DNA of 35,577 bases from a virus, in the IMG/VR virus record IMGVR_UViG_3300046167_000039, positions 1-35,577 of that record; one strand, written 5' to 3'. Under the pieces are notes generated by a model that saw nothing but the letters and a program-made list of their open reading frames with translations, had not been told where the DNA came from and searched no databases. Shown here in pieces: positions 1,322 to 35,155 of the stretch. Numbering within the stretch: position 1 is the first letter of the stretch; each line of letters opens with the position of its first letter. The position numbers were made by a program, and so were the translations under genes.

Positions 1322-1391
1322 GAACTAGCGGAGGCCAATTATCTTCTCCAAAGATAAACTCCCCCTAAAAGCGCTTTCGCTAGTTCTTTTT
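1322..1391 (+). terminator. Branched stem terminator between convergent operons
   Basis: GAACTAGCG at 1322-1330 pairs perfectly with CGCTAGTTC at 1378-1386 and is followed by TTTTT at 1387-1391, giving a rho-independent terminator for the plus-strand cluster. Inside the long loop there is a second perfect 7-bp stem, TTATCTT 1339-1345 with AAGATAA 1351-1357, plus a shorter GAG/CTC pairing, so the RNA would be branched. The same stem could act weakly on the convergent gene ending at 1390. Confidence 0.65.
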
Positions 1392-2229
1392 AATCGTGAC
1401 AAAAGCAAGTCATTTGATCATCATCATTAAATAAGCTTTGTTGTGATTTGCTGATATCAACCAGTTTTATATATTCTGGTCTGTCTTTTCTAAATTTTGC
1501 ACCAGCATGGCTACCAAATTTTTGTTCTTGCTTGATCCACCAATCTGCCATTTCAGGCCTTTCTTTTAATATAGATATAGTAGTGTCCATGCCTTTTAAA
1601 AAACAAAGATCACAATTACCCGCTGGAGTCTTGCCATTAGCATTAGTTAAATTAAGATCAAAGTTTTGTTTATTCCAGAACTCAGTAACATCTTTAACTG
1701 TATGCTTTGCATCATACATTGGCGTTATGTTTGTCCATGATTCGTAATCATTTGCTTTTTTTGAACTAGCAACCCTCCTAGGCTCATCATATCTAAGGCC
1801 GATAACACTATTCCATGTTTTGTAATTTTTAATTTTTCTCATAAATCTTTGCATTACCTTTATCTTTAACTCGCTAGTACAAAACCTAGATGTTGGATTA
1901 GGCAAGTAACCCCTTTGATTTAAAAGTCTTTCAAATGGCTCTCCATTTCTTGCGGCAGTTTCATAAGTCACTTCTTTTGTTCTATGTATTGGTCTTTCTT
2001 CTCCAAAATAATGTTCTAGCCAATGAATGTGTATATCCCATTTTTCTGATATCTCATTAACAAAGTTTAAAGTTTCAGGTGCTTCTTTTCCTGTATTAGC
2101 AAACACAACATATATATCATCTGGTAACTTGCCACCATATGCTTGTATTATGTTATGCAACATAAACCCCGAAGTTCTACCACCGCTAAAACTAATTAAC
2201 GCTGGGCCATCTATTTTATATGGATTCAT
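1390..2229 (-). CDS. PAPS reductase / DndC-like PP-loop enzyme
   Basis: This 279-residue protein has an N-terminal PP-loop SFSGGRTSG (residues 13-21), the ATP-pyrophosphatase signature of the PAPS-reductase and DndC superfamily, then NTGKE (45-49) and RFCTSELKIK (115-124), close to the RxCTxxLK element of that family. Further cysteines, C206 and C209 (CDLC) and C275 and C277 (CFC), could hold an iron-sulfur or zinc site. Family members adenylate substrates or move sulfur, in sulfate assimilation, tRNA thiolation or DNA phosphorothioation. The phage substrate cannot be told from sequence. It ends the replication operon and has its own promoter-like region at 2230-2292. No other dnd gene is visible, so a complete phosphorothioation pathway is not supported. 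Confidence 0.8.
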   Translation of the reverse strand: MNPYKIDGPALISFSGGRTSGFMLHNIIQAYGGKLPDDIYVVFANTGKEAPETLNFVNEISEKWDIHIHWLEHYFGEERPIHRTKEVTYETAARNGEPFERLLNQRGYLPNPTSRFCTSELKIKVMQRFMRKIKNYKTWNSVIGLRYDEPRRVASSKKANDYESWTNITPMYDAKHTVKDVTEFWNKQNFDLNLTNANGKTPAGNCDLCFLKGMDTTISILKERPEMADWWIKQEQKFGSHAGAKFRKDRPEYIKLVDISKSQQSLFNDDDQMTCFCHD

Positions 2230-24268: not shown

Positions 24269-24508
24269 TTAGCCTGTAATTAATTTATCCATTTTTTCGT
24301 CTAACTTGTCCAAACGATCTATGACTCTGTCTATACTTATTGTAAGTTCAACTTTGGTTACATAATCCTTTGCAACCTCTTCGCGCGTCTTATTCAAAAG
24401 TATATCAACTCTCTTTAGCTCTGTCGCGTTAGATCTGATGTTGTGTATGATAGGCGCAAATACTAAAGTCATCACAATATTCCAAAACATCATACCATCA
24501 AATTCCAT
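24269..24508 (-). CDS. Membrane-anchored coiled-coil protein, 79 aa
   Basis: ATG 24508 overlaps the endolysin stop by one base (TAATG); ATG 24520 would overlap it more. The N-terminal hydrophobic segment (MMFWNIVMTLVFAPIIHNI) is followed by a charged helix (ATELKRVDILLNKTREEVAK) and RVIDRLDKLDEKMDKL, giving one membrane helix and a coiled coil. I recall similar phage proteins beside lysis genes. It may be a holin partner or spanin-like protein, without direct proof. Confidence 0.65.
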   Translation of the reverse strand: MEFDGMMFWNIVMTLVFAPIIHNIRSNATELKRVDILLNKTREEVAKDYVTKVELTISIDRVIDRLDKLDEKMDKLITG

Positions 24509-24879
24509 TAGTAGCTCCAAATGTGCGGTCTAGGCCTGCCTTGTAAGTCTTTAGATATATCTAAATGTATAAATCTTGCATTACCTTTTTGGTTTACACC
24601 AATACCAGTAAACCCAAAATCTTTAGCTTTTGATATTATTTCTAATGCTTGTTTTCCTCTAACTCCTATGTCTGCTGCCAAGCCAAGCGCGTGTGTTCCT
24701 GGTTTGGATTTTTTTGCTTCAACAGGATGGTCTGCGCTTCTGTAACCAGAAGTTATTTTGAATGGGAATCCACACTCTGTTCTTAATGCTTGTAGTTTAT
24801 CTATGAGTTCATGTTCTATTTTGTTTTCACCAGTATGCTTGCATGCAAATTCTTCTAACGTAAAGTTCTTCCAGCTCAT
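24508..24879 (-). CDS. Endolysin, M15 D-Ala-D-Ala carboxypeptidase-like
   Basis: The 123-residue enzyme has SGYRSADHPVEAKK, GTHALGLAADIG and RFIHLD, the zinc-binding set H63, D70 and H105 of the Peptidase_M15_3 family. It should cleave peptide cross-links in peptidoglycan at the end of infection. It has no signal peptide, so it needs the holin encoded just before it. It overlaps the holin gene by ATGA (24879-24876). Confidence 0.9.
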   Translation of the reverse strand: MSWKNFTLEEFACKHTGENKIEHELIDKLQALRTECGFPFKITSGYRSADHPVEAKKSKPGTHALGLAADIGVRGKQALEIISKAKDFGFTGIGVNQKGNARFIHLDISKDLQGRPRPHIWSY

Positions 24880-25256
24880 TTTGTTACTCCTTTAGTTTTT
24901 TCAAATGTTCTAAGTCCGCCAAGTCCTAGCATGCCCATTAACACAGTCATTAACGAACCCATGTCAAAAGTTGGTAAGTCAAATGATAGTCCAGCTGCTG
25001 ATAGTCCGAATATAATAATAGGCTGTAATAAAAAGTGGTACAGCATAGCAATCCCGCAAGTCCAACCCACAAAGGGCCTCCAGCCTGCAACGAATAAGGA
25101 TTTATGTCCAGCTTCAATCTTATTGATTTCAATCTGCGCCATATTCGCTTTATGCAATTCAGTTTTAAGTTCATGGTTTAGTTTTGCCTGCAAGTCTTTA
25201 TCAGGTACTAGTTTGCCTACTATGTCGCTTACTGGTCCTATTAGTTTATCAATCAT
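24876..25256 (-). CDS. Holin (3TM family-like)
   Basis: The 126-residue protein has an N-terminal amphipathic, charged half (VSDIVGKLVPDKDLQAKLNH) and then GWRPFVGWTCGIAMLYHFLL, followed by two more hydrophobic segments (PIIIFGLSAAGL, SLMTVLMGMLGLGGLRT). This order fits Holin_3TMs. It should form the inner-membrane hole for the M15 endolysin, whose gene overlaps its end. Confidence 0.85.
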   Translation of the reverse strand: MIDKLIGPVSDIVGKLVPDKDLQAKLNHELKTELHKANMAQIEINKIEAGHKSLFVAGWRPFVGWTCGIAMLYHFLLQPIIIFGLSAAGLSFDLPTFDMGSLMTVLMGMLGLGGLRTFEKTKGVTK

Positions 25257-25587
25257 CTTTTTTGTGTAATTTTAAAAAATACTCAGCATCTACTAATGCT
25301 AATGGTTTTGTTCTATTTCTTTTGATTATAACCAATGGTTCGTAATCTTTACAGTTTTCTTGTGATTGTTCGTATGCTTTCCACACATTTACGGCTTCTT
25401 GGTTTTTGCACTCTATAGAATACGGAAATTGCTTGCGTGATTGCACACCCATTATGACATCCTCACCATTAGAACCCATCGGACGGGATTCTAAATCTTC
25501 AGGGTCAAAACCAAGTAATTCAATTAGTTTATCTACTACCCATTGTTGCAAAGCTCTTCCTTTGGCTTTTGCGGATGATGGCCTCAC
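25249..25587 (-). CDS. Small PD-(D/E)XK nuclease (resolvase-like)
   Basis: The 112-residue protein has ESRPMGSNGEDVIMG (D43) and YSIECKNQE (E59, K61), the spacing of a PD-(D/E)XK core as in Hjc-type resolvases and VRR-NUC-like enzymes. It begins at GTG 25587, which overlaps the preceding small gene's stop (GTGA), supporting that start. It may resolve concatemer branches before packaging. It lies between the cyclase and the holin. Confidence 0.7.
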   Translation of the reverse strand: MRPSSAKAKGRALQQWVVDKLIELLGFDPEDLESRPMGSNGEDVIMGVQSRKQFPYSIECKNQEAVNVWKAYEQSQENCKDYEPLVIIKRNRTKPLALVDAEYFLKLHKKDD

Positions 25588-25672: not shown

Positions 25673-27421
25673 CTATGTTGTATAAATAATCAAAGGCTTT
25701 TCTTTTCCTTTAACTTTTATTGGTTTTAATAATTTTAACTTAATTTTAGATTTATTTGCAGTAGATTCACCAATCAATATATCTACACCCACTTCTTTGG
25801 TTGCTGACTCTAGTCTTGCAGCTGTATTTACACAGTCACCAATAGCAGAATAATCAAACCTGGTATCACTACCCATATTACCAATAACAGCACTTCCTGT
25901 ATTGACTCCTATACCTATAGCTATAGGTTCTGATAATTCTTGTTGTAATTGTTGTATAGATGTTTTTATATCTTGCGCACACGCTATAGCTCTATCCTCG
26001 TGATTATCTAAATCCAATGGTGCTGAAAATATTGCCATAGCTGCATCACCGATAAATTTATCTACCATACCTCCATGCGCTTGTATGCAATGCACCTGTG
26101 CAGTCAATACTTTATTCATAATCTCAGTTACTTGTTCTGGTTCTAACTTTTCGCTTAGATTTGTAAAACCTCTAACGTCTGTAAATAAAAATGTAGCTTC
26201 TTTTTTCTCACCGCCAAGTTTTAACAAGTCAGGATTATTTTGTAATTCTTTAACTTGTCTTGGATCTAAGTAATGCTCAAACTGTTTTTTTATTTGTTGA
26301 CGTAATTTATATTGTTTTTTGTAGCTTAAATACAAAGCAATAGTAGAAATTAGTATTTGAGAGATAAAAGTCCATGAAAAATCTAGCAAAACACCTTTTT
26401 GAACGCTAAAAGCTCCTGTAACGCCCGTGGTTAAGAGTAAAATTACAGCAATACTTATGCCCTTAACTATACTGAGATAATTAATTACAAGCCACGTCAA
26501 CGACACAAATATTGTCAAAATTAAAATTTCCGCTGATAAATGCCAGTTTGGAATCTTTGGTGAGTTTTCTATCAAGATTGACTCAGATAATGCTGCTTGT
26601 ATTTTATGTGGCTCTAATAATCCAATCGGTGTTGCAATTTGTGGCATGATTCCCGAGGCGGTTACGCCAACAAATACAAATTTACCAGCAACATCCATTT
26701 CTTGTAAATTCGTTTGTGGTGTATCTACCCAACTAATCCACTTACGACCTAAACTGTCTGTGTCAACTGGTGGCAATCCTTTAACGCGTATTTGTTCTAT
26801 ACCAAGATCATTTGTTTTTATAACGTAAGTATCAGCACCAACTAATGCTTTTAATACCTCTGTGCCAAATGCAGGCACATATCCATCTGGAGTTCTTAAC
26901 AATAATGGTATTCTTCTTACTAAGTTGTCTACATCAGTAGGTGCGGTTGCAATACCTTCCTGTGCATAAGCTGTTAGTAACTTTATATTTTGTATGACAC
27001 CATTTGTATTCATACCACCCACATCATCACCAAGTATGACAGTACCTGTGGTTGGTGGATAATTGCCATTGGGATTTTCAAACATTGCTAGAATAGAAGT
27101 GCCATACTTTAGTGACTCTGCAAAGTGAGCGTCACCACCCATTCTATCTGGTTGTGGAAAACCTATAACGTAACCAACACCTATAGCTCCTTTGTTTATA
27201 ATCTCTGTGTGTATTTCACCTAGTCTTTGTCTTGGTAGTGGCCAACCACCTTCGTCAGCTATGTCCTCTTCTGTAATATTTAATATAGTAAAGTAACCAG
27301 ATGGTTGCTGTTTTGGCACTAGGTAATCAAATACTTTTAACTTTAATATCTCTGTGGGCGCTGACTGATATAACAAAGGCAATGCTAGTATTATAAGTGC
27401 GGTGAATAGTATTCGTTTCAT
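25673..27421 (-). CDS. CHASE2-domain class III adenylate cyclase
   Basis: The 582-residue membrane protein starts with a signal-anchor (KRILFTALIILALPLLYQSA), then a periplasmic CHASE2 sensor (about 25-290), three membrane helices (about 296-367), and a cytosolic cyclase domain from about 405. The catalytic set is present: D415 in FTDVRGFT and D459 in KFIGD (metals), K455 (adenine-type selector), N532 and R536 in GDCVNTAARLE (transition state). S525 replaces the usual Asp/Thr partner of K455, which is common in such bacterial cyclases. It should make cAMP on the inner membrane. It abuts FecR (one-base overlap), a pairing familiar in bacteria. Very unusual in a phage. Confidence 0.9.
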   Translation of the reverse strand: MKRILFTALIILALPLLYQSAPTEILKLKVFDYLVPKQQPSGYFTILNITEEDIADEGGWPLPRQRLGEIHTEIINKGAIGVGYVIGFPQPDRMGGDAHFAESLKYGTSILAMFENPNGNYPPTTGTVILGDDVGGMNTNGVIQNIKLLTAYAQEGIATAPTDVDNLVRRIPLLLRTPDGYVPAFGTEVLKALVGADTYVIKTNDLGIEQIRVKGLPPVDTDSLGRKWISWVDTPQTNLQEMDVAGKFVFVGVTASGIMPQIATPIGLLEPHKIQAALSESILIENSPKIPNWHLSAEILILTIFVSLTWLVINYLSIVKGISIAVILLLTTGVTGAFSVQKGVLLDFSWTFISQILISTIALYLSYKKQYKLRQQIKKQFEHYLDPRQVKELQNNPDLLKLGGEKKEATFLFTDVRGFTNLSEKLEPEQVTEIMNKVLTAQVHCIQAHGGMVDKFIGDAAMAIFSAPLDLDNHEDRAIACAQDIKTSIQQLQQELSEPIAIGIGVNTGSAVIGNMGSDTRFDYSAIGDCVNTAARLESATKEVGVDILIGESTANKSKIKLKLLKPIKVKGKEKPLIIYTT

Positions 27422-28614
27422 TAATCACTCTGTGTGATTTTTATTATACTACCAGTACCGCCATTAACCTTTACCATTTTAGATGCACCATCTTGTATAA
27501 AGATAACCGTGTAACTAGCAGACGAATCTATATCTACTCTCGCTGTATCATTTACGCTACGAATAAGTGTTAAAACCTCACCAGTTATATACGATGTTAT
27601 TTGTGTATTTAAGTCTTGCCCTAGCTGTGTGCCAACTATGTTAGTTGACGTAGCATCTTGTGCTAGTTGATCTTCCTCTTGGATTTCTTGTAATGCGTCT
27701 ATAACATCTAGCAAATCTTCAAGAAAGTTTACATCAAGATAATTTATATCTAACTCTGTAAACTCTAGCTCTTGCTCTGAATCTAAAAAGTCTTCCTCTA
27801 AATAATCTATATCTAAATCATCAAAGTCTAATATATTTTTCTTTTTTGTTTGTATGGTTTCTTCTATAACTTGTTCTTGTTTTGGTGGGTTTACGATAAG
27901 CATGTTATCTATCAGCTCTAGTGTTAGGTCTAGTATAACTGGCGCACTTGGTGACTTTTCATATACATCTACAGTAGTAGCTTCGTAAGGTTTATTGAGT
28001 GTAACCGTACCCATGGCTGTAGTTACTAATATCTCACCACTAGATAAACCATTAATGTCAGGTAATAGTATTAATAAACTGCGACCAGTTTCATCTACAG
28101 TTACAGTAAAATCAGTACCCCTTATAGCTATATTGGCTGTAGGCGTTTTGAGATCTATATTATTTTTATCTATCTTATTTAGGCTACCTGTAATAAATCT
28201 GGCTGTGCCAAGACCAAAGGTAATAGCCATTTTAGATTTGCTAGGGTTTGGATCAAAGATATATTCGTCTATGGTAAGTTGCGAATGTTCGGTTAGTTTT
28301 ACTTTAGAATCGTCTAAGAATGTAATAGCCATACGACCATTAGATGTAATGGCCTCATCGTTTTGCTGTATGTCAAAAGACTCTATTGCCTGGTATGGCT
28401 TATCTCTTACAACTTGTGCCGAACCAGTCAGCTCAGATATATTGCCTACGTCAACAGCTGGTTGTTGTTCCGCTATCGTTTTGGATGACGCAAATAGTAC
28501 CGCTAGACCCAGTAGAGTTAATCTGTAACCAATCAGCAGCAAGAGTTGATGACTGTATGATGTTAAATGTTCTACTGCTTCCTGTTTGGTCAAGGTAGAA
28601 GTATCCTCCCGCAT
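27421..28614 (-). CDS. FecR-domain periplasmic protein
   Basis: The 397-residue protein has a hydrophobic leader (LLLLIGYRLTLLGLAVLFAS), then a FecR-type domain: AITSNGRMAITFLDDSKVKL, STLTIDEY-like strands, LGTARFITGSL and TPTANIAIRGTDFTV. An acidic linker follows (DFDDLDIDYLEEDFLD) and a beta-rich C-terminus. FecR domains bind periplasmic or surface ligands and pair with signalling proteins; here the next gene is a CHASE2 cyclase. ATG 28614, with AGGA seven bases upstream, is the best start; GTG 28620 is the alternative. Either way it overlaps the curlin-like gene by over 160 bases, so a shorter start at an internal TTG is possible. Confidence 0.85.
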   Translation of the reverse strand: MREDTSTLTKQEAVEHLTSYSHQLLLLIGYRLTLLGLAVLFASSKTIAEQQPAVDVGNISELTGSAQVVRDKPYQAIESFDIQQNDEAITSNGRMAITFLDDSKVKLTEHSQLTIDEYIFDPNPSKSKMAITFGLGTARFITGSLNKIDKNNIDLKTPTANIAIRGTDFTVTVDETGRSLLILLPDINGLSSGEILVTTAMGTVTLNKPYEATTVDVYEKSPSAPVILDLTLELIDNMLIVNPPKQEQVIEETIQTKKKNILDFDDLDIDYLEEDFLDSEQELEFTELDINYLDVNFLEDLLDVIDALQEIQEEDQLAQDATSTNIVGTQLGQDLNTQITSYITGEVLTLIRSVNDTARVDIDSSASYTVIFIQDGASKMVKVNGGTGSIIKITQSD

Positions 28615-29161
28615 ATCCACTTCCTGTAAAGTTTACTGTGTTGCTATCTCCATCTACATCAACGTAGTTAGTAGCACCATCATAGTTAATATCAAAATCA
28701 AAAGTGTTTCCATCACCATTGATTATCCAATCTAAATCTAAGTTTTCACTCAACGCACTTGTGCCAGTATCTAGGGTAAATGTATTTGAACTACCAGTAA
28801 CATCTACATTGTAGTCTGACCCACTAATACCATAAGTATCTGTTGGATCACCCTGTATAGTAAATGTATTACTGTCACCATCAAATTCAAAGAATCCTGT
28901 TACATTGTCACCGTAGATATCACCGAGAAATTTATTACTACCACCTATCTGGTTGATATCTAGTGTTAAATTAATACCGTCAAGGTCTAGAGCTGTTAGC
29001 GTTCCAGCTATAGAATTTAGACCGCCAATAATGTTAGATGAGCCTAGTTGTTCTAGGTCTATGTTTGCTGTAGCACCTGCTTGCTCTACAAAGATTTCAT
29101 TATCAGCCGCGAATAGCGGTAACACAATCATTGTCGCAATCAATTGTTTTAAATTCTTCAT
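28451..29161 (-). CDS. Secreted curlin-like repeat protein
   Basis: The 236-residue product has a signal peptide (about 1-19, LPLFAA) and then degenerate strand-turn repeats of 20-28 residues built on G-x-S/G-N-x-F/x: FVEQAGATANIDLEQLGSSN, INQIGGSNKF, DGDSNTFTIQ, TGSSNTFTL, GDGNTFDFD, DGDSNTVNF. These resemble curlin (CsgA/CsgB) repeats with some Gln replaced by Asp. There is no obvious Gly-rich CsgG-targeting N-terminus. Two cysteines, C224 and C236, end the chain. Its place directly behind CsgG makes it the likely secreted substrate. It overlaps csgG by 59 bases. Confidence 0.75.
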   Translation of the reverse strand: MKNLKQLIATMIVLPLFAADNEIFVEQAGATANIDLEQLGSSNIIGGLNSIAGTLTALDLDGINLTLDINQIGGSNKFLGDIYGDNVTGFFEFDGDSNTFTIQGDPTDTYGISGSDYNVDVTGSSNTFTLDTGTSALSENLDLDWIINGDGNTFDFDINYDGATNYVDVDGDSNTVNFTGSGYAGGYFYLDQTGSSRTFNIIQSSTLAADWLQINSTGSSGTICVIQNDSGTTTSC

Positions 29162-29972
29162 AACTCCAATATCCTCTATTTGTTCCTTCTTTTATAGTTT
29201 GTAGTACAGCAGTTTCTATTGCTGTCTGTAGTGCTATATTGATTGACTCGTTTCTAACTAAACCGTTTTCTATTTCTACTAGTTCGGTTGAGTCAGTAAT
29301 AAAACGAAAGATATCTTGATCTATAGATGCACTTAATATCGTTTTTGTTACTAATACTTCTAGTAATACTTTACCCGTACTCACGGATACAGTACGCAAT
29401 GAGATGGTAACTGTATCTTGTTTGTACTGCCTAGACATTCCTATTCCAAGGTATCTAGCTCCAGCACCACCACTCTTTACGTTACTTTCGTATGATATCA
29501 CGCCACCTTGCATTATTAAACCCGCGAACATAAGTGGTTGTAATTTGGTATCTTTTTTAAACTCTTGCCTGGTGCTTCTTATGATCTGCCTTTCTTTGGT
29601 TACATGGTCTAGGCCTACGCGTTCTACTACCTCAAAGAAACCATTATGATTACTGCCAGCATGTTTTAATGCTCTAATTAAGTAAGCGTCTGGTGCTTGA
29701 GTTACCGCAGATGAGAAGGTTGCGTATGTGCTATTGCTTCTTCTTTGACCAGTTGCGTCTATGAAAGATCCTGCATATATTGCTACGACTGGTTTGGCTT
29801 GGTTAGATGCTTTGACGTTAGCAAGTTCTGGAACTAGTAAAGATCCTATCTCTGGCTTTTCTATTTTTTGTATGGGTGGTAAGTTGTTTTCTATTGGGTC
29901 AAATAATAAGGCGCAACTAGAAAGTAAAATTACCGATAGGCAAAGATATAGTTGTTGTATCACCATTTGCAT
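29103..29972 (-). CDS. csgG: CsgG, curli outer-membrane secretion pore lipoprotein
   Basis: The 289-residue lipoprotein has the lipobox LLSSC (Cys20) and matches E. coli CsgG closely over YESNVKSGGAGARYLGIG (161-178), LRTVSVSTGKVL (192-203), KTILS (210-214) and FRFI (222-225). CsgG forms a nonameric outer-membrane channel for unfolded curlin. The constriction loop reads STYATFSSAV; F86 aligns with E. coli F56, while positions matching N55 and Y51 appear to be Thr and Ser. The length is close to the bacterial protein. It overlaps csgF by 56 bases and the curlin gene by 59, so translation is coupled. Confidence 0.95.
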   Translation of the reverse strand: MQMVIQQLYLCLSVILLSSCALLFDPIENNLPPIQKIEKPEIGSLLVPELANVKASNQAKPVVAIYAGSFIDATGQRRSNSTYATFSSAVTQAPDAYLIRALKHAGSNHNGFFEVVERVGLDHVTKERQIIRSTRQEFKKDTKLQPLMFAGLIMQGGVISYESNVKSGGAGARYLGIGMSRQYKQDTVTISLRTVSVSTGKVLLEVLVTKTILSASIDQDIFRFITDSTELVEIENGLVRNESINIALQTAIETAVLQTIKEGTNRGYWSYEEFKTIDCDNDCVTAIRG

Positions 29973-30354
29973 CCGTTATTGTTAAAGTTATTATTCCGTC
30001 TACAACATTATACTCTATAGTGTTACCTTCCAATTCTAAGATACCGCTTTCGCTAGCAGTCTCTCCAAACAAGTTTTCTACTAACTGTCTTGATAGTTGT
30101 GCATAGATTCTTGACTCTAGGTTTCTAATAAACCTTGCAAGCGTAGTGTTTTCTTTGTCTCTTTCTATTTGATCTTGCAACGCTTTTAGTTCTGCTTTCA
30201 CAGTCATCTTACGCGTGTATTGTTGGTTCTCTATAGTCAGATAATGTGCAGATGTGCCGATACCAGAGAATGACGGTGACTTAAACTTATGCACCATTTC
30301 ATCTGCTGATACAGATAAACATAATACCAATAAACTAATCTTTCCTTTTGTCAT
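29917..30354 (-). CDS. csgF: CsgF, curli nucleation/assembly factor
   Basis: The 145-residue protein has a signal peptide (about 1-17) and then HKFKSPSFSGIGTSAHYLTI, equivalent to the FRNPNFGG segment by which CsgF plugs the CsgG channel. A helical middle (LARFIRNLESRIYAQLSRQL) and a C-terminal strand region (YNVVDGIITLTITDANGDTT) follow, as in CsgF. In bacteria CsgF anchors curlin growth at the cell surface. It opens the cassette and overlaps the preceding membrane protein gene by 20 bases, so it is expressed with late genes. Confidence 0.9.
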   Translation of the reverse strand: MTKGKISLLVLCLSVSADEMVHKFKSPSFSGIGTSAHYLTIENQQYTRKMTVKAELKALQDQIERDKENTTLARFIRNLESRIYAQLSRQLVENLFGETASESGILELEGNTIEYNVVDGIITLTITDANGDTTTISLPIGNFTF

Positions 30355-30685
30355 TTCTTCTTGCTTTTGCTATTTTGTTGGTGTCTATTAATTGTGGTAC
30401 ACCTAACATTGTTTTTATCATAGTGTCTTGTCTGATAATTTCGTTATCCAAAGATCTAACTCTATCTATCAATGCTACTAAAATACCATGTTGCGTGTCT
30501 AGTTTTGTGCCTAGCCTTTCCTCCATGGCTGTTAATGATGTATTAACTTTCTCATCTACAGTATCTAGTTTGGTTTCCATACCATCTATGATTCTATTTA
30601 TTAGTTTCCATACAAACATGCCAAGACCTATGGCCGCAGCGATAGGAAAACCTAGTTCGGTTATAAGGGTAACAATGTCGTTCAT
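30335..30685 (-). CDS. Holin-like membrane coiled-coil protein, 116 aa
   Basis: It has an N-terminal membrane segment (LGFPIAAAIGLGMFVWKLI) followed by a long heptad-rich helix (ETKLDTVDEKVNTSLTAMEE, VRSLDNEIIRQDTMIKTM). The family occurs in many marine phages, by memory, and is thought holin- or lysis-related; this is not shown here. The ATG at 30685 overlaps the upstream stop (ATGA), and its end overlaps csgF by 20 bases. Confidence 0.65.
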   Translation of the reverse strand: MNDIVTLITELGFPIAAAIGLGMFVWKLINRIIDGMETKLDTVDEKVNTSLTAMEERLGTKLDTQHGILVALIDRVRSLDNEIIRQDTMIKTMLGVPQLIDTNKIAKARRNDKRKD

Positions 30686-31312: not shown

Positions 31313-31524
31313 TAATGTACCATCCTTTCTTCGTAATAAATTATTTCAGAATCTTCTGTTACCTCTCCCCCAGACATCAAAGACATAATCTGCATTGCGT
31401 GATTTCTGTCCTTTGCTCTAATTTCTTTACCAACATAAACCATGTCATCCACAATCACTTCAATATCAAATATTTTGTGGTGGGACATTGTTTGTAAATA
31501 ATCCTTGAGCTTGAGCTTTTGCAT
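31312..31524 (-). CDS. Small hypothetical protein, 70 aa
   Basis: The frame from ATG 31524 overlaps the end of the portal gene by 59 bases; ATG 31488 (MSHHKIF) would shorten the overlap to 23. The product is alpha/beta (FDIEVIVDDMVYVGKEIRAK, NHAMQIMSLMSGGEVTEDSE). No family is recognised. It is directly followed by the AT-hook-like small gene. Confidence 0.6.
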   Translation of the reverse strand: MQKLKLKDYLQTMSHHKIFDIEVIVDDMVYVGKEIRAKDRNHAMQIMSLMSGGEVTEDSEIIYYEERMVH

Positions 31525-33619
31525 TTTGTCTTATTCCTTCTCTATCTCTTTCCATGACTGCATTGATTTCTGCGATATTAATTTGTGCGCCGTACTTAGC
31601 TTGCAGCTCCATGGCTTTAACTCTAAGCTGTGCCTCTTCAATATCTCTTTGCCTGTCATCGTCCATGATAATCTTCATTCTGTCTGTTTCAGCATCAATC
31701 ATTGCTTTTTGTGCGCTGACTTGTGCCTTCATAGCTTCGGCTTGTGCAAGCATTTCTGCTGGATCAGGCTTAGGTGGCTCTTGTGATTGCGGAGGCATTG
31801 GTGGAACTTCTGTATTTATGAAGCTTTGCGCGTCTTGGAAACCAGCCATTTCTATCATTCTAGTCAAAGTATTCGCGTATTGTTGCATTGACACTAGAGG
31901 ATTCTGTGGTCCTAGCGTTTGCATGATTTGTTCTTGTTTTTGTGATAATTGTGCTAAGACTTGGAATTTTTCTTCGTCAGATGACTTAGATATAGCTACA
32001 TTTACTATAATATCCTTGTCGTTATCCCAATATCTAGGGTCTACAGGTACAAATTTACCGTTTAATCTAAATACATCTTGCGCGTTTTGGTGCTTAATTA
32101 CCAAGCTATTTACTGTTTTAAACATGGTTTTTAGGCCACCTTCAGCAAAATGTCTACAAATAAGTTCTACTCTTCCCTGTGCGCCACTCATAGTAGCCGA
32201 TACAGCTGATGAGGTGCTAGATTGTAGAGCGTCTGCGTTTAGGCCAGCTGATGCTTTGGATACGCCAGTTCTATTTTCCTTAGCTTCGTCCAAATATCCT
32301 AATACTGGGAACGCTTCTTTACCCACAAACGGCACAGCAAATGGTTGTACCATTCCTGGCGCACGCATCCTAATAGGTTGCCCTATGTCGGTGTTTAGTA
32401 CATCGTCTATATTTACTTGTCCTTCAACAATACCCATGCGCGGGAAGATTGAATGACCTAGTGAATCTAAAGTGTCACGCATAATTTGTGACTTAGCTGA
32501 TTGAATTGGTTTTAGATAATCAGCAGGACATGAACCTATAGCTGTGTGCGGCTCTGGGTCAGGGCAGAACATACATATTGGTAGTTCATCCCATTGTTCT
32601 ACGTTTAAAACATTTAGTCCGTTACCCGCGGTGCATACTCTGACTCTTTCATCTATTCCATCACCATCATAATCATAGAACAAGTAATGCTCTACATAGA
32701 GTACATCCTTACCGCCAGCATCGTTTCTGTCTGGGTACACCATATTGTCAAATGGGTTTCTTGCTTCTTGCTCTTCGTAGCTTTCAGGGTCTAACGCACT
32801 ACCGCCGTATCCTGCGTATTGTTCTATTTCTTCTTGGTCGTATCCCATTGCTACTAAGTCGGATACTGATTTAATCATGCGGTGTGCAACGTAAGATGCA
32901 GATTCTATATCGCGTGCGTGCCTTGATATAAGTATTTCTTCGGGCGGTACAGACTCAATACATACTTGGTCTTTTGGTTTTAATCTTCTGATCGTTAGGT
33001 CGTAGCTTGTAGGTACTTCTTGGGTGACTTCTTCTTGGCTTATAGGATCAAAGGTTACTATCGTTTCATTGGTTACTGACTCTTCTACAACCTCTACGTT
33101 CTTATCCATAATTAACGCTTGGTAGGATTGCGGATCTAAGTTAGTAAATTCGTGCGTGGTAGCGGTTACTGAATCATCCCAAAACACTTTGACAAAACCA
33201 GTCTTTCTGACAAGCGCATCTTTGAATACATCATACAGAACTTGAAAGCCTGGGTTTTTTTGTTGGATAATATAATTAATATAATCAGTTTGCTGTTCGG
33301 CTAGCTGTATATCTTCTGGTCCTTTAGGTACAAACTCCACAATCTTCTTAGTGCCAAAGAATGTACGCATGATAGACGGCAACATAAACAAGATGCTTTC
33401 TCTAACATCAGTAGATACAAATTCTGACTGTAGCGAGCTAGTGCCTTCAGGCTCGTTACCAAGATAGTATTCTGTGGATTCAGCACGTTCCGCGCCGACT
33501 TGGTGTATAAAATCTTTAGCGTCATCCATTTCGGATTTGATTACGCCGACCAAATCAATAGACTTACTTTCTTCTTCTGAGATAGCTATGATTTCTTCTT
33601 CTTTGTATTGCTTTGCCAT
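31466..33619 (-). CDS. Portal protein
   Basis: The 717-residue protein fits the large portals of P22-like and marine podoviruses: an early helical region (KDFIHQVGAERAESTEYYLG), a core with STDVRESILFMLPSIMRTFF and TGFVKVFWDD, and PADYLKPIQSAKSQIMRDTL. It ends with a very long helical barrel-like region rich in Gln, Met and Ala. The portal forms the ring through which DNA is packaged and ejected. It lies four bases after terL, the expected order. Confidence 0.85.
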   Translation of the reverse strand: MAKQYKEEEIIAISEEESKSIDLVGVIKSEMDDAKDFIHQVGAERAESTEYYLGNEPEGTSSLQSEFVSTDVRESILFMLPSIMRTFFGTKKIVEFVPKGPEDIQLAEQQTDYINYIIQQKNPGFQVLYDVFKDALVRKTGFVKVFWDDSVTATTHEFTNLDPQSYQALIMDKNVEVVEESVTNETIVTFDPISQEEVTQEVPTSYDLTIRRLKPKDQVCIESVPPEEILISRHARDIESASYVAHRMIKSVSDLVAMGYDQEEIEQYAGYGGSALDPESYEEQEARNPFDNMVYPDRNDAGGKDVLYVEHYLFYDYDGDGIDERVRVCTAGNGLNVLNVEQWDELPICMFCPDPEPHTAIGSCPADYLKPIQSAKSQIMRDTLDSLGHSIFPRMGIVEGQVNIDDVLNTDIGQPIRMRAPGMVQPFAVPFVGKEAFPVLGYLDEAKENRTGVSKASAGLNADALQSSTSSAVSATMSGAQGRVELICRHFAEGGLKTMFKTVNSLVIKHQNAQDVFRLNGKFVPVDPRYWDNDKDIIVNVAISKSSDEEKFQVLAQLSQKQEQIMQTLGPQNPLVSMQQYANTLTRMIEMAGFQDAQSFINTEVPPMPPQSQEPPKPDPAEMLAQAEAMKAQVSAQKAMIDAETDRMKIIMDDDRQRDIEEAQLRVKAMELQAKYGAQINIAEINAVMERDREGIRQNAKAQAQGLFTNNVPPQNI

Positions 33620-33622
33620 AAA

Positions 33623-35155
33623 TTATCCTACTCTGATTATTCTAGATTTTAGTGGTTGTCTGAAATTATAACCTAAAAAACTAGTGCTTCCACCAAAACT
33701 TGCAGCGGAGGATGCCATGGTCAGCGCGAGCGCATCCGCCTTGTCGGGTGATTTAATCCCGCGCTTGCGCATTTCGTCTTTGCTTTCTATCTTTATTTTT
33801 CCAGTAGAGGTATATTTATATAATGGCGCAGCCAATTCCGAGACAAGCTCATCATCACTAGGAAGTCGGCAATCACGCTGCGTCAGCCAATCCTTGATAG
33901 CAAACCATAATTCCGCGCGCAAGTTTAAATAATTTTTCTTGGTGGAGGGTGCTTCGGCGACATTGACTCCGCGCACGGGTAAATTTTGTTCAGCTAGTCT
34001 ATCCACCACGCCTGCGCCTAAGCCGATGACATCTACCAATATTTCTTGTGGTTTTTCAATAGCAGTAGACTCGTCATACATATTCTTAATCACGCCACAC
34101 AATTGCATAAGATCCATAGACTTAAATGACTTGATACTCATTACATGGTTTCCCTGGCGTATACACAGCGCAGAGTTATCACCGCCGAATCGCGCTACAT
34201 CTAGTCCCCAGATAATCGGTGCGTTAGCAGTTAGCGAGACATCCCTATCAATCGCTGACTTAACCAATCCCATTGGTATTACAGTATCATCATCCGCGGA
34301 TGGAAACTCGCCCATCACCTCCACGCGCGCGACTGTGGAATCTTCGCCGTACTGCTCAATCATAGTTTGGAAAAGCTTTTGGTCTGTGCCTTCTACAGTT
34401 CGCGAGTCTATCTGTTCGTTTTTCCAGAAGGATTGCTTGGAGTTAAAGCTATCGTAGAATGGCCCAGTGTTTCGGCGCGGGTTGGAGAAAGTGAACCAGT
34501 ACCTATCGCGCGTGGGTTCGGAGAAGAACCCTTCGCTGACTGAGTAGATGGGCGCGGGGATACCCGATGCTTCATCCATGATTAAGCAAACTCCGTAGGA
34601 GGAGTGAATACCCGCGAAAGCGTCAGGATTCTCCTCGCTCCATAACTGTGCTTGCGCGTAGTAGTAACCAGTATCTATCTTGAGGTCGTTAATCAGCGCA
34701 TCTTCAAACCATTGCGCGGGTTTAATCGTGGTGGCAGTCTTAGTAAACCAATGAGAGTTTATAGACAGCGTGAGCCATTTGCCAAGTTCCGCCCATGTTC
34801 TTGAGCGGAGCTGTTGTTCGGTGTTAGCGGTAACGATAATGGTTGACCCCAGGCGCGTGGAGAGCATCCATAGAATGATCCATGCGACTAGTGCAGATTT
34901 ACCAATACCACGACCTGATGCTACGGCTAGTCTAAACATCTCTGGTAAATCTAATACGTTGTTACGCTCAATGTGTATTGCCATTTCTCGCAAAATTTTC
35001 TCTTGCCACTTTCTTGGTCCTTTGAAGTCTTCAAGGGGGGTGTCTTTCTGTCCCCATGGGAAGACATACTTAACAAAGTTTACTGGGTTGTCTTTGATTG
35101 GTCCTGACCATAGTTCGGTCATGAGTTCTTTTTCTAGTTTTACGCCGTATTTCAT
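33623..35155 (-). CDS. terL: Terminase large subunit
   Basis: The 510-residue packaging motor has Walker A GRGIGKSA (81-88), Walker B LIMDE (191-195), and the RNase H-like nuclease with WGLDVARFGGDNS (D319), ILVDVIGLGAG (D375) and SPDKADALAL (D471/D474). It packages DNA into the prohead and cuts it. It begins after an AT-rich leader and follows terS by 149 bases. The gene is richer in GCG/CGC than the structural genes after it. Confidence 0.95.
   Translation of the reverse strand: MKYGVKLEKELMTELWSGPIKDNPVNFVKYVFPWGQKDTPLEDFKGPRKWQEKILREMAIHIERNNVLDLPEMFRLAVASGRGIGKSALVAWIILWMLSTRLGSTIIVTANTEQQLRSRTWAELGKWLTLSINSHWFTKTATTIKPAQWFEDALINDLKIDTGYYYAQAQLWSEENPDAFAGIHSSYGVCLIMDEASGIPAPIYSVSEGFFSEPTRDRYWFTFSNPRRNTGPFYDSFNSKQSFWKNEQIDSRTVEGTDQKLFQTMIEQYGEDSTVARVEVMGEFPSADDDTVIPMGLVKSAIDRDVSLTANAPIIWGLDVARFGGDNSALCIRQGNHVMSIKSFKSMDLMQLCGVIKNMYDESTAIEKPQEILVDVIGLGAGVVDRLAEQNLPVRGVNVAEAPSTKKNYLNLRAELWFAIKDWLTQRDCRLPSDDELVSELAAPLYKYTSTGKIKIESKDEMRKRGIKSPDKADALALTMASSAASFGGSTSFLGYNFRQPLKSRIIRVG

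Follow-up and report, generated by a model that had tools for sequence, protein, structure and literature searches.

Why would a phage carry genes for curli secretion, and what could they do during an infection? The locus that raises this question lies on the linear IMG/VR record IMGVR_UViG_3300046167_000039, a virus sequence of 35,577 bases, which was analysed at its full length and is called the window below. On the minus strand it encodes CsgF, CsgG, a curlin-like substrate, a FecR-domain periplasmic protein and a CHASE2 adenylate cyclase, preceded by a small membrane protein, and the identity of these parts is close to certain. The best-supported reading, to which we give a probability of about one half, is that the six genes form a working minimal curli exporter with a cyclic AMP (cAMP) signalling arm, which gives infected cells surface fibres; it is placed first because the substrate, the pore and the collar are all kept. 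With a fibre-export unit shared by unrelated ocean phages, some of the most abundant marine bacteria, which lack a system of this kind, may have their surface remodelled when they are infected. Its features in the window are as follows.

30335-30685, minus strand: small protein of 116 amino acids with an N-terminal membrane helix and a coiled coil, the first gene of the cassette
29917-30354, minus strand: CsgF (Pfam CsgF, 1.4e-18; phrog_35372, 8e-45)
29103-29966, minus strand: CsgG, outer-membrane lipoprotein pore (Pfam CsgG, 1.8e-44)
28451-29161, minus strand: curlin-like substrate with a signal peptide and a beta-helix with GxxN repeats
28481-28519, minus strand: dual-coding stretch near the 3' end of curlin, whose +1 frame encodes the hydrophobic core of the FecR signal peptide
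27421-28614, minus strand: FecR-domain periplasmic protein (Pfam FecR, 8.9e-10; phrog_37870, 2e-61), its start taken from the start analysis
25673-27421, minus strand: membrane-bound CHASE2 class III adenylate cyclase (CHASE2, 2.3e-27; Guanylate_cyc, 2.9e-21; phrog_35576, 1e-122)

An earlier note, made from the letters of the window alone, had named CsgF, CsgG, FecR and the CHASE2 and cyclase domains, and the Pfam matches listed above bear out each of these names. CsgF has a signal peptide and, in the alignment, the N-terminal F.P.F.G segment that is typical of the family. The CsgG profile matches the solved CsgG structure 3x2r in the PDB at 3e-61, its lipobox is LSSC, and the ATG at 29966 is the conserved start in the alignment. 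The codons for the CsgG signal peptide lie over the end of csgF, and the 3' end of csgG overlaps the curlin 5' end by 59 nt, the curlin signal peptide lying over it. Signal peptides are predicted on CsgF, CsgG, curlin and FecR, and these export signals are conserved.

The curlin call of the same note holds at the level of the family, in which Curlin_rpt is matched by 11 of the 22 aligned relatives (best 8.6e-6), whereas the window protein alone scores 0.65 and falls under the Pfam cut-off. Its GxxN curlin-type motifs are spaced by 22-33 residues and occupy alignment columns that are invariant or nearly so. The predicted structure is a parallel beta-helix with a confidence (predicted local distance difference test, pLDDT) of 80, and the fold search returns generic beta-helices (SufB/SufD, pectate lyases) and no specific relative.

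The cyclase of the window has a complete catalytic set, formed by D415, K455, D459, D523, N532 and R536 (the two metal Asp, the Lys/Asp adenine pair, the Asn and the Arg), and its profile matches PDB cyclases at 1.5e-35. D415, K455, D459 and R536 are invariant in all 63 sequences compared, among which only the cyclase of the methylophage Melnitz departs from the full catalytic set. The Melnitz enzyme (L003:7826-9877) lacks the adenine Asp and the active-site Asn and, judging from these residues, may be inactive or changed. In the cyclase domain (window 25673-26200) at least two alleles, that of the window and that of the L007 type, are mixed among close relatives, a likely sign of recombination inside the gene.

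The six genes behave as a unit. All 32 unique cassettes with sequence on both sides hold all six in the same order, the one exception to joint inheritance being L149, which has the small membrane gene only. A tree of 62 portal proteins shows about 10 switches between presence and absence, of which nine or more fall on well-supported branches. Since every one of the 32 cassettes is complete while presence flips at least nine times, the genes are kept or lost together. L111 has a near-empty site: when it is aligned with its cassette-bearing relative L008, the nucleotide similarity breaks off behind the genes on the portal side and returns shortly before RusA. Purifying selection acts on all six genes. 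Relative to the window, dN/dS (omega) lies at about 0.02-0.2 for five of them (csgF, csgG, curlin, FecR and cyclase), while the small membrane gene, compared with the relative farthest from it, reaches 0.35; several of the comparisons are saturated at synonymous sites. It follows from all-or-none inheritance together with selection that the set works as one system. Its repeated gain and loss in one phage lineage also supplies matched pairs from nature, carriers and non-carriers, for testing its effect.

The earlier note had described a unit of five genes, and those five stand as given, but the gene at 30335-30685 also belongs to it, as it always precedes csgF in complete cassettes. This front gene has weak PHROG holin matches (phrog_4898, 6.7e-4), and no kinase domain is matched by Pfam in its 116 residues. 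In the cassette-less L149, a 65% relative of it stands directly before the holin. Published modules show a short "histidine kinase" (HK) at the same front position (PMC9599517), and a comparison by position and description, not by sequence, suggests that this HK is the same kind of small membrane coiled-coil protein.

In the podovirus cassettes compared here, FecR has no start codon 3' of the curlin stop that would leave a signal peptide. The first codons of mature FecR overlap with the curlin stop (gctgtTGA), and the signal peptide is encoded by the +1 frame at the end of curlin. When third-position A is counted in four-fold and isoleucine codons of curlin, it is found in 4 of 540 codons under the FecR hydrophobic core (0.7%) against 48.3% in the rest of the gene; among ten representatives less than 80% identical, the count is 2 of 87 against about 46% elsewhere in curlin. 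The +1 frame holds 17-27 stops elsewhere in the gene, and the curlins of HTVC008M and Melnitz, which have no such overlap, show ordinary third bases at the homologous codons. This overprinting, a clear instance of dual coding maintained by selection, shows that the cassette needs FecR and that the protein is exported.

An upstream FecR ATG stands at codon -53 in the group of the window, at -43 in another and at -41 or -27 in others, and an in-frame ATG is present in nearly every lineage, L053 having only a TTG near the expected place. In the window, the codon -53 ATG is at 28614, inside curlin, with an overlap of 164 nt, and FecR translation probably starts there. The gene starts are revised in this way for FecR, whose open reading frame spans 27421-28620, and for CsgG, whose frame spans 29103-29972 and probably starts at 29966. 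A +1 frameshift giving a curlin-FecR fusion, an idea that came from the overlap of the curlin stop (tgtTGA) with the first mature FecR codons, is set aside as the main reading, since a hydrophobic stretch well upstream is constrained too and nearly every lineage has the in-frame ATG.

The remainder of FecR includes a long acidic C-terminal region, and its predicted structure is unreliable (pLDDT 46). The C-terminus (window 27421-27560) ends in curlin-like beta-strand motifs (QDG, KITQSN), a tail that may contact the fibre, to judge from these motifs. FecR was also considered as a FecI-type regulator; its neighbours are curlin and the cyclase, not a cognate extracytoplasmic function (ECF) sigma factor and a TonB receptor, and therefore FecR is here the name of a domain and does not denote an iron regulator.

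The place of the cassette in the genome is that of phage cargo, as the earlier note had claimed. It is flanked by portal and terminase genes on one side and by RusA, holin and M15 endolysin genes on the other, all on the minus strand, and two small minus-strand genes lie between the portal (31466-33619) and the front gene (30335-30685). The flanking genes are these.

33623-35155, minus strand: terminase
31466-33619, minus strand: portal protein, upstream flank and lineage marker (phrog_1216, 1.3e-148)
25249-25587, minus strand: RusA-like/PDDEXK nuclease, downstream flank and outside the cassette (phrog_244, 3.2e-19)
24876-25256, minus strand: holin of the three-transmembrane gene transfer agent type, allele A (PF11351, 2.2e-17; phrog_3427)
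24508-24879, minus strand: M15 peptidase endolysin, flank (PF08291, 4e-13; phrog_894)

The five-gene order that the note proposed to look for in other viral contigs is recovered in dozens of independent ones. A chimeric assembly is ruled out, as many independent contigs span the portal, the cassette and the RusA/holin genes in constant order.

The capsid and portal of the window are related to those of LUZ24-like podoviruses, Microcystis phage MJing1, HTVC106P, Venkman and spring-water phages. PolA and TerL of HTVC023P type have no match in the window or in 13 other cassette records, which are fragments, in searches that had no positive control; by its capsid and portal the window falls in a different group. 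In a second group of carriers (G006 and G007, 52-54 kb), the portal is akin to those of HTVC033P, HTVC115P and other members of a group that we take to be the HMO-2011-like/CRP-3-like podoviruses. CsgG is 80-83% identical between the two lineages while their portals are only remotely related, so the cassette has been transferred from one phage lineage to another, which agrees with the view of Wittmers (PMC9599517).

The earlier note knew csgG and csgF from some marine myoviruses and took the whole set to be new, which it is not. In pelagimyophages, csgF and csgG with their neighbours were described by Zaragoza-Solas in 2020 (PMC7029224). Buchholz reported the set in Melnitz in 2022 and proposed a gated pore or pinholin (PMC9004378). 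In the same year Wittmers described the complete module, FecR, curlin and adenylate cyclase included, in HTVC023P-type podoviruses and myophages, argued for transfer between viral families and listed aggregation, superinfection defence and uptake as possible roles (PMC9599517); cultured HTVC008M and Melnitz also have it. Aggregation, superinfection block, pore and cAMP coupling have thus mostly been published already as hypotheses (PMC7029224, PMC9004378, PMC9599517). What is new here is that a LUZ24/HTVC106P-related podovirus lineage and HMO-2011-like podoviruses carry the cassette, as well as its all-or-none inheritance with repeated gain or loss, the purifying selection, the overprinted FecR signal peptide, the tracking of the holin allele described below and the re-reading of the front gene.

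The window shares with the HTVC023P-type and pelagimyophage module the order front gene-csgF-csgG-curlin-FecR-cyclase, the lack of CsgE and the occurrence in marine phages. It differs in having a front gene with no Pfam kinase domain and a single curlin, curlin 2 being optional in the published set (PMC9599517). HTVC008M and Melnitz keep the same order, with CsgG 42% and 39% and cyclase 34% and 31% identical to those of the window, but they have a second curlin between FecR and cyclase, and their FecR signal peptide is not dual-coded. Bacterial curli operons (csgBAC/csgDEFG) and alphaproteobacterial csgF-csgG loci have the CsgF, CsgG and curlin families in common with the phage sets, which lack the CsgE of bacterial csgDEFG. 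No FecR or CHASE2 cyclase gene is found within about 7 kb of five chromosomal alphaproteobacterial csgF loci, which have csgG nearby. In Campylobacterota clusters, FecR adjoins a CHASE2 cyclase as in the window; these clusters add a cAMP phosphodiesterase and a tetratricopeptide repeat (TPR) protein, and curli genes are not mentioned (PMC9239204).

How would the six genes work together? The accessory module would supply every part of a minimal curli (type VIII) exporter and a cAMP arm along with it. Sec would carry curlin, CsgF and CsgG over the inner membrane, CsgG would form the outer-membrane pore and CsgF its collar, and the beta-helical curlin would be exported and assemble on the cell surface. 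FecR in the periplasm would relay the state of secretion, or that of the outer membrane, to CHASE2 in the membrane cyclase, which would convert it into cAMP. As the genes lie among late genes, the most likely benefit would be a late surface fibre on the infected cell, which would block other phages or hold kin cells or virions together. The fibre, the FecR-to-CHASE2 link, the timing, the benefit and the cAMP target are inferred.

The profile hidden Markov model and structure matches of the parts speak for a fibre exporter, as do the known pairing of FecR with a neighbouring CHASE2 cyclase in Campylobacterota (PMC9239204) and the adhesin-like character of the extra curlin of HTVC008M. This second curlin (L002:5639-6964) combines a PA14 domain (2.7e-6) with curlin repeats (5.2e-8), as in a surface adhesin. 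Several points weigh on the other side. The curlin repeats are degenerate, with Asp replacing many Gln, amyloid is not known from any phage system, and the authors of the Melnitz study saw no clumping in their cultures (PMC9004378). CsgE (PF10627), which the earlier note had rightly called absent, has no match in the window or in ten other cassette phage records, the E. coli control being positive, although CsgE is reported to be dispensable for basal curli (PMC7029224); the note also gave CsgB, CsgC and CsgD as absent, at which no separate search was aimed. A cyclic nucleotide (cNMP)-binding domain occurs in 4 of 79 genomes of the SAR11 family, to which a Pelagibacter metagenome-assembled genome (MAG) belongs, and in none of 11 cassette phage records, so that a SAR11 host would mostly lack proteins that bind cAMP. 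Why the cyclase is conserved when no receiver is known in SAR11 is a puzzle that can be tested directly.

The position of the cassette beside the lysis genes suggests another use, in which CsgG and CsgF would be a gated outer-membrane hole or a pinholin-like part that times or completes lysis, with curlin, FecR and cyclase regulating the gate, as proposed for Melnitz (PMC9004378). The front gene resembles a lysis protein and adjoins the holin in L149. In the clade of the window, allele A occurs at every cassette locus whose holin can be seen (67 unique DNAs with 88% identity or more to that of the window), while cassette-less relatives have other holins (26 unique, at most 74% identity), and cassette and holin switch together several times on the portal tree (L100 among cassette-less phages; L111/L112 beside L008). 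The association can be followed at window 24876-25256 and in L093, L096, L100 and L111. It is not accepted as proof of a role in lysis: because the genes adjoin and other carriers have other lysis genes, it may be plain physical linkage of one block that is exchanged. The cassette-bearing L135 has quite different lysis genes, the neighbouring genes differ in HMO-2011-like and myophage carriers, virions are too large for CsgG pores (PMC7029224), and the constant retention of a constrained curlin and cyclase is left unexplained, all of which makes a lysis pore a possible but doubtful explanation. It is distinctly unlikely that the set is a device reaching from outer membrane to cytoplasm, in which FecR and CHASE2 would sense curlin secretion through CsgG and make cAMP in hosts without known receivers, timing the end of infection with the matched holin.

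An alarm at the envelope is also unlikely, in which the outer-membrane complex, FecR and CHASE2 would mainly sense an outside event, such as adsorption of a second phage or envelope damage, and signal it by cAMP, the fibre being secondary. FecR-CHASE2 cyclase pairs are bacterial signalling units, CHASE2 cyclases act in S. meliloti signalling, and the catalytic residues are intact in nearly all copies, but a sensor needs neither CsgF nor a secreted curlin, and no cAMP receiver was identified in either the likely host family or the phages. Uptake of nutrients or cofactors through a CsgG pore that no CsgE gates, suggested in PMC7029224 and PMC9599517, is improbable, as it leaves the joint retention of curlin, CsgF, FecR and cyclase unaccounted for. 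Hitch-hiking cargo with no function, or an artefact of assembly, is a reading for which nothing speaks beyond the patchy presence of the genes, and selection and synteny already refute it: omega is low in most comparisons, the dual-coding stretch is constrained, and the order is the same in dozens of independent contigs.

The source of the genes was also sought among bacteria. One scan of genome contigs returned only MAG contigs that bear the phage-type cassette, and no donor was found. Phage cassette contigs are binned in bacterial MAGs (G001:C1, G053:C11; Pelagibacteraceae), and L162-L167 are cassette-bearing MAG contigs named Maricaulis, Rhodobacteraceae, Pelagibacter and Flavobacteriaceae; on the strength of such contigs, curli could wrongly be ascribed to the bacteria of these groups. 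In the 79 genomes mentioned above, CsgG is present in two and a class III cyclase above cut-off in two, and because they lie on the same contig each time, they are probably phage genes. The window phage has another auxiliary metabolic gene, which encodes a phosphoadenosine phosphosulfate reductase (window 1390-2229; phrog_424, 4e-56).

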